64,000 bases of DNA. Source: Warburgia ugandensis (Eukaryota; Streptophyta; Magnoliopsida; Canellales; Canellaceae). Positions 60,524 to 64,000 of the stretch are shown piece by piece. The stretch is from the NCBI GenBank assembly GCA_035236585.1, contig CP141135.1, positions 8,528,001-8,592,000 of the forward strand, written 5' to 3'. The notes beneath the pieces were generated by a model that saw nothing but the letters and a program-made list of their open reading frames with translations, was not told the origin of the DNA and searched no databases. The first letter of the stretch is position 1, and every line of letters begins with the position of its first letter. The position numbers and the translations under genes are program-made.

Positions 60524-61983
60524 ATGAGGCCTCCGAGAGGTAAATCTTTCGATTATTTCATTTGATTCATTAGTTGAAGTTTCTGTCTTTGTGCAATCTT
60601 TCTCTAAAAATCTTTTAATCAAAATGTTGTTTGCTGTTTCGTTTGATTTCAGGTGGTGGGGGATTCAGAGGAAGAAGTGATGGAGGAGGAAGAGGGGGGA
60701 GAGGAAGAGGTGGAGGTGGAGGTGGAGTTGGAGTTGGAGGTAGAGGAGGAAGAGGCCGTGGTGGTGGTGGCAGAGGTGGAGGAAGGGGCCGTGGAGGTGG
60801 AAGAGGTGGTGGAATGAAGGGAGGGAGTAAGGTTGTTATTGAGCCCCATCGCCATGAGGGAGTTTTCGTTGCGAAGGGAAAAGAAGATGCTTTGGTTACT
60901 AAGAATATGGTTACTGGAGAGAGTGTTTATGGAGAAAAGAGGATTGCTGTTCAGGTAATTTGTTATCTAGATGCAAAGATGTATTTATTGTTTTGCTTTT
61001 TGGGTTTTTGTTTACGTTAGTACTTGCCCATTTATATGGCAGAAATATAAGTGAAAATTACATATCATTAATCTGGTTTCAGGTAATTGCTCATCTGTCA
61101 GAAATACTTGTCATTATATTGAGATTTATTTATTATGTATTGCTGTTATATAAGTAAAGATTACATATATTGATTTAACTTTTTGCAGAACGAGGATGGT
61201 ACAAAGGTTGAATACAGGGTCTGGAACCCATTCAGATCAAAGTTGGCAGCTGCTATTCTTGGTGGCGTTGACAATATCTTTATTGTGAGCATTCTTTCTT
61301 GTCTCAGCGATGTTTAACATTTATTGTGGTTTACCCTGTTGCTTATAATATGAAGACATCATATTTCTCTGTTCTTTGCTTGAGAATTTCAGGGTATTTT
61401 ATATTTAAACAACTATCTGTTTTTGTTTATGCGGGGACACATCAGAGGATATTGTTCATTATTATAAAGTTTTGTCGTTTAATTTCATCTGAAACCATTC
61501 ATGTAGGGAAAACCTGTTTTTCCTCCTGATAAAGTGCCTGCTGAATTTCATTGCAGTTTCACTGTATCGTTTGTTGAATATCTCCTGAACTGTATACTCA
61601 CTGCTTTCAGACTCCTGGAGTCAAAGTCCTTTACCTTGGAGCTGCTTCTGGAACTACAGTCTCTCACGTTTCTGACATTGTTGGACCTGTAAGTTGACCG
61701 TAAGCTAAAGTGTTGTCATAATGCGGTGTGCTGTCCTTCTAGGAAGCATGCCTATTCATTATATTGTTACACTGATATTCTTTCTTATGCTGGTTTGTTC
61801 TGATAGACGGGTATGGTCTATGCTGTGGAGTTCTCTCATAGAAGTGGTAGGGACTTGGTTAACATGGCAAAGAAAAGAACAAATGTCATTCCCATTATTG
61901 AGGATGCTCGACATCCTGCCAAATACCGAATGTTGGTTAGCATGGTGGATGTCATATTCTCTGATGTTGCTCAGCCCGATCAG
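60524..61983 (+). CDS. FIB: Fibrillarin, exons 1-5 (3' end outside window)
   Basis: Exons 60524-60539, 60653-60954, 61189-61284, 61611-61688 and 61807-61983 join in frame for 249 residues. The rest (the ARILALNA-type end of the methyltransferase) is not in the window. Fibrillarin is the nucleolar 2'-O-methyltransferase of box C/D snoRNPs, acting on rRNA. After MRPPRGGG comes a Gly/Arg-rich (GAR) domain to about residue 62. Then [20 protein letters not shown], the N domain, and the AdoMet-binding start [20 protein letters not shown], followed by [13 protein letters not shown] and [12 protein letters not shown]. All are at the expected places. The tiny first exon (16 nt) is as in Arabidopsis FIB genes. 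Exon 5 ends in a GT donor, and intron 5 is at least 2 kb and carries two snoRNAs. The absence of later exons within 2 kb is explained by the window edge; truncation of the gene cannot be excluded. Confidence 0.95.
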
Positions 61984-62737
61984 GTCTGTGTTCTATGCCA
62001 CTTGTGTTAGTTTTGCTGTTTAGATGATAACTGTTGTTTTTAATTTTATTTGGACGGGAAATATAATGTAGCGAACTTGAGGTTACATCTAGTAGCTGTG
62101 CTGACTGCCAAATGCCATATGTTAATGTTTAGGATGTTGATTTTGTTTCGTGTTGAGTACTTTATGTCATTGTTGTTGTAACGTTTTAACCTTTTTTCTG
62201 GATTCTTCATCTGTTGGCCCATTTTATGTCTGTTTTACTCTTTGATTCATCTTTACTTTTGTCACATTGTAACCTTTTTGATATTTAATTTCTTTCCAAT
62301 TCTTTGTTATGTTGCCATTAAATCAATGTATTTACCAATAATTTTGTAAGTACCTAAATTAATTTTTTTTTCCAATCTTTTGATCTTCGACCTTTGTCAA
62401 TGGTTGTATTGACCATTTGATATCTCAAATTCTATTTTCCTGATTTATTTGCCATTGTATGTGATATATATGCACATACATGTTTACTACAGTGCATGTG
62501 TTGTCTGCTTTTGTTGTCTTTTGTTTCACTTGTTTAACTTTTATTACAATTTTCTTTTCTTATCTTAAGATTTAAGATTCAAGTGGAGTTTGAACTGTTA
62601 AAATTTACTTCCATTTCTTATTCTGGGGCCTTGATAATAAGTCACTCGAGAAGGGCATTGCTCTTCTTCTTCTAGAATTTTCAAAATGCTTTGAGGGACC
62701 CCGGTCTAACAGTTTTAAAGGTCCATTTCTACTATCA

Positions 62738-62808
62738 AGCATATGATGAGTCATACTCGGATTCCCCTTCAGGACATCTTGGATGATGCAACCCGAGTTT
62801 CTGATGCA
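62738..62808 (+). ncRNA. Box C/D snoRNA, U60f type, copy 1
   Basis: Box C ATGATGA at 62743-62749, box D CTGA at 62801-62804, an internal C'-like GGATGATG at about 62781, and a short terminal stem (GCAT with ATGC). The stretch ACTCGGATTCCCCTT before the presumed D' position is complementary over about 13 bases to AAGGGGAATCCGA, which I recall from the conserved 3' part of 25S rRNA. That would direct 2'-O-methylation of a G in the GGGG run. Arabidopsis fibrillarin genes are known to carry a U60f snoRNA in intron 5, the same position. It is processed from the host intron. Confidence 0.85.
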
Positions 62809-63135
62809 AAATATATTTTAGAACTTCATGTTCTGAGTGCAAATGTATTTCAATTTATGTATATGTTTTGCTGTCTTTTGCATATATATCCTTAAATCTT
62901 TTAAGATTTATTATCCCATGTGTGTAACTTGTTTGGATACTCCAAGAAAACTTAAAATTGGAACAAGTAAAGGTAAGTAATTATTTGCTTTTTTTTTGTG
63001 ATTATTTTTGCAGTAGATCCAGAAATTATCATATTCAATATAGCGGTTGTTAATCATTTATAACATTCAGTTTTGTGATGTTTATGTGTAAAATTTGAGA
63101 TGAAGCTACTGTCTCTCTTAATGTTGAAAATGTAT

Positions 63136-63208
63136 AAAGCATGTGATGAGTTACTCGGATTCCCCTTCAGGACATTCTGGATGATGTAGATTCGAGTTTC
63201 TGATGCTA
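63136..63208 (+). ncRNA. Box C/D snoRNA, U60f type, copy 2
   Basis: Second copy about 400 bp after the first. Box C GTGATGA at 63143-63149, box D CTGA at 63200-63203, and a clean 5-bp terminal stem AGCAT with ATGCT. The guide ACTCGGATTCCCCTTCAGGA is identical to copy 1, while the spacer before box D differs (GTAGATTCGAGTTT versus GCAACCCGAGTTT). The conserved guide and boxes alongside changed spacers suggest that both copies are under selection. Confidence 0.85.
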
Positions 63209-64000
63209 TTCAATAAAGAGATACACTAACAGTTTTTCTAGCTCATCCATGGAAGTATTTAACGTTTTCTTTTTGTCCTCTTTATGCTTAATGAAGGTGC
63301 ACAATGCTGAAATAGATGGTGCAATTCAAGGGTAGTGTTAATCATTACAGTGGGATGTGTAGCCATTTTGTGGACATGCTTTGATTGTATTTTTTGCCAT
63401 CTGTCAATTTATAGACTGTTATTGCCAGAAGATAGTTTAATCAGAGCAAAAATTTTCATGTATCTTCCGGCCATTGAAGCATGTGGTGAGTGTAAGACGA
63501 TGTAACTAGATTTAATGGATCTGTTGTGGTGAACTGGTGAACAACACTGTTATGTCCTGTGAAGTTAGTGAAACGATTGGAATATAACACTGTTTGTGGG
63601 TCATCATCATCAAGACCTTATCCCAATTAGGGGTCGGCCATATATTAAAAATTGAAACTAAGGAAGGATAGTAATGTTCCTTCGCGATATGAGACTCACT
63701 CTTGTACCACTGCTTCACACTCACACACCCAAAGCAAGGAGTATTGTTATTGCTTCCTTGTTTGAAACTCCTCAAAATGTGTTCCATCATTAAGAAAAAA
63801 CTAGTATTCTAGTTCGCTCTTTATCTTCCTCTTCTCTAACTACTATTTTGGGCTTTACATTTGCAAAATATTATTGACATATTATTCAAAAACTATTAAT
63901 AAAGTCACAAGTGCTACTCTAACAGAAAAGGGAGTGCGGATATGACAATGCAGGAAGAATGTATTAAAAAATGCTTTTACCCTAAAGCTAATGCGAGTTA
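63209..64000. other. Rest of fibrillarin intron 5 in the window
   Basis: Except for a 45-bp RTE LINE end at about 63602-63645, nothing is recognised and no further fibrillarin exon is found. Confidence 0.4.
63602..63645 (-). mobile_element. RTE LINE 3' end, ultra-short copy
   Basis: CATCATCATCAAGACCTTAT, CCCAATTAGGGGTCGGCCAT: the reverse complement of the RTE LINE 3' end (GGCCGACCCCTAATTGGGAT plus GAT tail). Severely 5'-truncated copy in fibrillarin intron 5. The match to the young copy at 39608 is close. Target duplication not identified. Confidence 0.8.

Follow-up and report, generated by a model that had tools for sequence, protein, structure and literature searches.

The fifth intron of a fibrillarin gene of Warburgia ugandensis carries two box C/D snoRNAs of the snoR60 (U60f) type in tandem. 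Very probably they derive from an old duplication, have both been kept by selection and guide methylation of the 25S rRNA. This makes W. ugandensis a further plant genome in which a methyltransferase gene hosts the RNA predicted to guide one of the enzyme's 25S methylations. Both snoRNAs lie close to the end of the window, i.e. the whole stretch of 64,000 bases that was analysed, on the contig called C10 hereafter.

We compared the whole window with Rfam using cmscan. Two matches reached the gathering threshold, both to snoR60 (RF00339, cut-off 40 bits), and each spans the full model, positions 1-72 of 72 (Table 1). This covariance search bears out the U60f-type box C/D identity proposed in the initial annotation, whose coordinates were correct to one base. 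Boxes C (RTGATGA) and D (CTGA) are canonical in the two copies, while box C' is a near match and box D' (CAGG) is degenerate. The 24 bases around the guide (TACTCGGATTCCCCTTCAGGACAT) are identical in copies a and b, and the differences lie outside this block (8 mismatches in 70 aligned columns, with 3 gap columns), in agreement with the initial description of a shared guide between diverged spacers. The same description listed boxes C, C' and D, which are present, and closed terminal stems, which holds in part: these stems are short, and the four pairs of the model are complete in copy b, but the outermost is a mismatch in copy a. A permissive Rfam scan of positions 61984-64000 (E ≤ 10) gave 12 matches, two of them over the cut-off of their own family, and placed snoR60 only at the two known positions.

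The host gene was recognised exon by exon. A search of the genome with the Pfam family Fibrillarin (PF01269) returned 10 matches from 11 candidates, 5 on C10 and 5 on C4. The seven-exon open frame in the window and just beyond it encodes a protein of 304 residues, with MRPPRGG at its start and an N-terminal part rich in glycine and arginine. In window numbering, exon 5 ends at 61983, intron 5 at 64471, and exon 6 starts at 64472. These edges and the PF01269 matches confirm the initial placement of the snoRNAs in intron 5 of the fibrillarin gene. Both copies are on the sense strand of the gene, approximately 750 and 1150 bases into the intron.

Table 1. Features of the fibrillarin gene and its two snoR60 copies (positions in the window).
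Feature	Position	Strand	Remarks
Fibrillarin gene, exons 1-5	60524..61983	+	GT/AG splice sites, open frame; Pfam PF01269 exon by exon
Individual fibrillarin exons	60524-60539, 60653-60954, 61189-61284, 61611-61688, 61807-61983	+	exons 6-7 beyond window end
Fibrillarin intron 5	61984..64000 in window	+	2488 bases in total; ends 471 bases past window end
snoR60 copy a, box C/D snoRNA	62737..62808	+	RF00339, 79.4 bits, E 7.3e-16
Copy a box C (ATGATGA)	62743..62749	+	from sequence
Copy a guide TCGGATTCCCCTT	62757..62769	+	13 pairs with the expected 25S stretch AAGGGGAATCCGA
Copy a box D' (CAGG, degenerate)	62770..62773	+	read from sequence
Copy a box C' (ATGATGC)	62783..62789	+	read from sequence
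Copy a box D (CTGA)	62801..62804	+	from sequence
snoR60 copy b, box C/D snoRNA	63137..63207	+	RF00339, 89.7 bits, E 1e-18
Copy b box C (GTGATGA)	63143..63149	+	from sequence
Copy b guide TCGGATTCCCCTT	63155..63167	+	same 13 pairs
Copy b box D' (CAGG)	63168..63171	+	read from sequence
Copy b box C' (ATGATGT)	63181..63187	+	read from sequence
Copy b box D (CTGA)	63200..63203	+	from sequence

The genome search found two fibrillarin genes, the one in the window and a paralogue on C4. The latter has a full open frame and an intron 5 of 2407 bases. Of 300 aligned codons, 290 specify the same residue in both proteins, and the genes have diverged with Ks ~0.24 and Ka ~0.018. Similarity also occurs ~1.8 kb (C10) and ~2.0 kb (C4) past the stop codons, in line with what a segmental or whole-genome duplication would leave. 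When the genome was searched with RF00339, at least four matches were found, all over the cut-off, two on C10 and two on C4; this number is a lower bound because 61 of the 181,659 candidates were scored. All four are located in the fifth intron of a fibrillarin gene, and each of the two genes holds a snoR60 pair with the copies about 400 bases apart. The doubling reported in the initial annotation is real, but it is not peculiar to the gene in the window, since both fibrillarin genes found carry the pair.

The four copies allow the order of events to be read. Across genes, there are 2 mismatches in 72 aligned bases between the first copies (C10a and C4a) and 6 in 71 between the second copies (C10b and C4b). 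Within genes, copies a and b show 8 mismatches in 70 aligned bases on C10 and 15 in 71 on C4 (gap columns, up to 3 per pair, are excluded from these counts). The two a copies form one group and the two b copies another, and the latter have a two-base gap in common. By this comparison of sequences, the tandem duplication is older than the duplication of the gene (Ks ~0.24), and the snoR60 pair has outlasted the latter. The flanks of copies a and b are no longer alike. No trace of a larger duplicated block is left: within 200-250 bases on each side, copies a and b share only the snoRNA itself and scattered matches of 9-13 bases, and a match of 50-52 bases between the flank stretches is the same DNA contained in both.

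Outside the snoRNAs, intron 5 differs between C10 and C4 at 451 of 2099 aligned positions (~21%). With this rate as the background of a simple binomial test, so few mismatches have a probability of 5.8e-6 in copy a and of 0.003 in copy b. We also scanned the alignment with 2416 sliding segments of 72 bases. Five of them have 70 identities, with starts at 62735-62739, i.e. at copy a. Identities number 66 or more in 67 segments, of which 54 begin at 62707-62760 (copy a), 13 are at the 5' end of the intron and none is over copy b. In these alignments, the conservation of both copies exceeds that of the intron around them, less clearly for copy b, and copy b appears to have been kept, less strictly than copy a. 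Boxes C and D are preserved in each of the four. The copy C4b is changed just after box C and in box C', and a change in its guide turns a C-G into a U-G pair. Given the altered box C' and the G-U in the guide duplex, C4b may be decaying and on its way out.

These patterns matter for the alternative that one copy only is a working snoRNA and the other a decaying duplicate or a snoRNA pseudogene. We regard this as unlikely. The lower constraint on the b copies between genes and the state of C4b are what it would predict, whereas copy b of the window outscores copy a against Rfam (89.7 versus 79.4 bits), has the same guide and undamaged boxes C and D, and every one of the four copies exceeds the Rfam cut-off. 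The four copies are also material for comparing constraint on snoRNA duplicates.

The guide TCGGATTCCCCTT forms 13 pairs with the expected 25S stretch, AAGGGGAATCCGA, with a predicted energy of -24.0 kcal/mol for C10a, C10b and C4a, and of -21.9 kcal/mol, with the G-U, for C4b. With CAGG as box D', a C occupies the fifth position upstream (62765 in copy a, 63163 in copy b) and faces the third G of GGGG, a register that depends on this choice because D' is degenerate. We searched the 14 contigs of the assembly with a 43-base pattern of the expected 25S sequence, allowing up to three mismatches, and found no intact target stretch. There were eight places, all with three mismatches, spread over C9, C10, C12, C13 and C14 (L012-L017 and two further). 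Many of these mismatches are C-to-T or G-to-A, and in all eight places the CpG within the target reads TG (five) or CA (three), changes that methylated copies typically show once they decay. The one place that was run, L013, is a eukaryotic LSU rRNA (2048 bits). Decay aside, the genome's 25S copies agree with the expected stretch, which we take to be the 25S target. Since all copies found are decayed, we infer the intact target sequence of W. ugandensis. The initially proposed pairing with 25S, with a C opposite a G at the fifth position, stands for the expected rRNA sequence, while only decayed copies of it were found in the genome.

In the reading that we favour, i.e. two guides retained from an old tandem duplication, both copies would be released from fibrillarin intron 5 and assemble with fibrillarin, NOP56, NOP58 and the 15.5K protein. 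The guide upstream of D' would then direct the 2'-O-methylation of one G in the 25S stretch (G2125 in Arabidopsis). Expression, processing and methylation in W. ugandensis are all presumed here. The duplication would have occurred inside the intron before the window gene and its C4 paralogue separated, and selection on the snoRNA would keep both copies, with a weaker constraint on copy b and above all on C4b.

Snorna type, host gene and target are all established knowledge; the new detail is the doubling. The Arabidopsis counterparts, U60.1F and U60.2F, presumably belong to the same Rfam family (snoR60, RF00339), and we take the intron that carries them to be the fifth as well; the original paper on these fibrillarin-intron U60F snoRNAs is reportedly that of Barneche et al. 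in 2000. According to PMC8053127, they sit in an intron of FIB1 and FIB2, one per gene named, and target 25S_G2125. This agrees with the single copy per Arabidopsis fibrillarin gene noted at the outset. The same paper reports that the mutant fib1-1 loses U60.1F and has lower methylation of 25S G2125, and that fib2-1 keeps U60.2F and its G2125 methylation is not reduced (PMC8053127). The target of U60.1F is given as LSU-G2114 in PMC6461891, a difference in numbering. The W. ugandensis snoRNAs share with the Arabidopsis ones the fibrillarin host, their predicted target would correspond to G2125, and they differ in being two per gene. As this arrangement also occurs in Arabidopsis, with a single copy in each gene, the W. 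ugandensis pair is an ordinary, slightly expanded example. The raised dosage and the conserved tie between fibrillarin expression and its guide RNA that were suggested initially are conjectural. The link between fibrillarin and its guide was already present in Arabidopsis through intronic hosting, and the pair changes no known mechanism.

Adjacent copies are also familiar in plants. Rice has paralogous snoRNAs side by side, for example U15a-U15b and U36Ia-U36IIa-U36IIb, and paralogues in clusters are common among plant snoRNA families, although U60 or snoR60 is not named in the main text of this source (PMC5122169). Plant snoRNA clusters are usually intergenic and have their own promoter (PMC11028025). 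The W. ugandensis pair resembles them in the adjacency of its paralogous copies and differs in lying within an intron of a protein gene. Among the titles and abstracts of the open-licence literature searched, we noticed no description of two snoR60 copies in one fibrillarin intron. Such doubling may well be common.

A different role would be one mainly in cis, in which one copy, or both, would sense snoRNP protein on the fibrillarin pre-mRNA and thereby serve autoregulation. The precedent is SNORD86, a box C/D snoRNA in an intron of NOP56, the gene of a core snoRNP protein, in mammals (review PMC11028025), and the W. ugandensis snoRNAs likewise lie in an intron of such a gene. Splicing could face competition from two sites of snoRNP assembly within one intron, so that fibrillarin output would track the pool of free snoRNP protein. 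The doubling would then strengthen this loop in a lineage-specific way, and copy b would have been partly released from the constraint of its target. We consider a mainly cis role very unlikely: SNORD86 is an orphan that acts in cis, whereas the snoR60 copies keep an rRNA guide, and the Arabidopsis homologue works in trans, since 25S G2125 is less methylated where U60.1F has been lost (PMC8053127). That copy b in particular is kept as a cis sensor, and not for rRNA dosage, is highly improbable. Chance similarity or an assembly artefact, for which no support was found, has a negligible probability given the E-values of both matches and the presence of the same pair, with diverged flanks, in the paralogous gene on another contig.

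Some minor observations concern other sequences. A possible third, decayed copy at 63477-63491 was rejected: its 15 bases resemble the start of copy b (93% identity, E 0.13), a likeness that is due to chance or unprovable, the aligned C4 stretch is less similar, and neither guide nor box D was seen there. ARAGORN found no tRNA within the window. An earlier version of the 25S target pattern, which included one D' base absent from the expected rRNA sequence, hit five places in the genome, i.e. three snoRNA copies and two loci on C14. These two (C14:21300218 and 21339786, L010 and L011) are separated by ~40 kb, and both include GAAGGGGAATCCGA, which is complementary to a portion of the guide. They were dismissed as snoRNA candidates, with no Rfam match at the gathering threshold; they are similar to each other and probably represent an unrelated repeat. 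An exact 19-base guide pattern gave no match in the collection viral_contigs and occurred in four stretches of genome_contigs (a bacterial and archaeal collection; prokaryote by title).

A last observation concerns the fold of the free RNA, in which ACTCGG (62755-62760), at the start of the guide region, can pair with CCGAGT (62793-62798), just upstream of box D. This pairing overlaps the guide and is absent from the Rfam model. In the predicted folds, it forms in both a copies (C10a and C4a), and in C10b the two stretches are paired inside a longer helix. The predicted fold of C4b differs; by reading, its ACTTG could pair with CGAGT, with one G-U. If formed, the helix could act as a latch that opens on rRNA binding.
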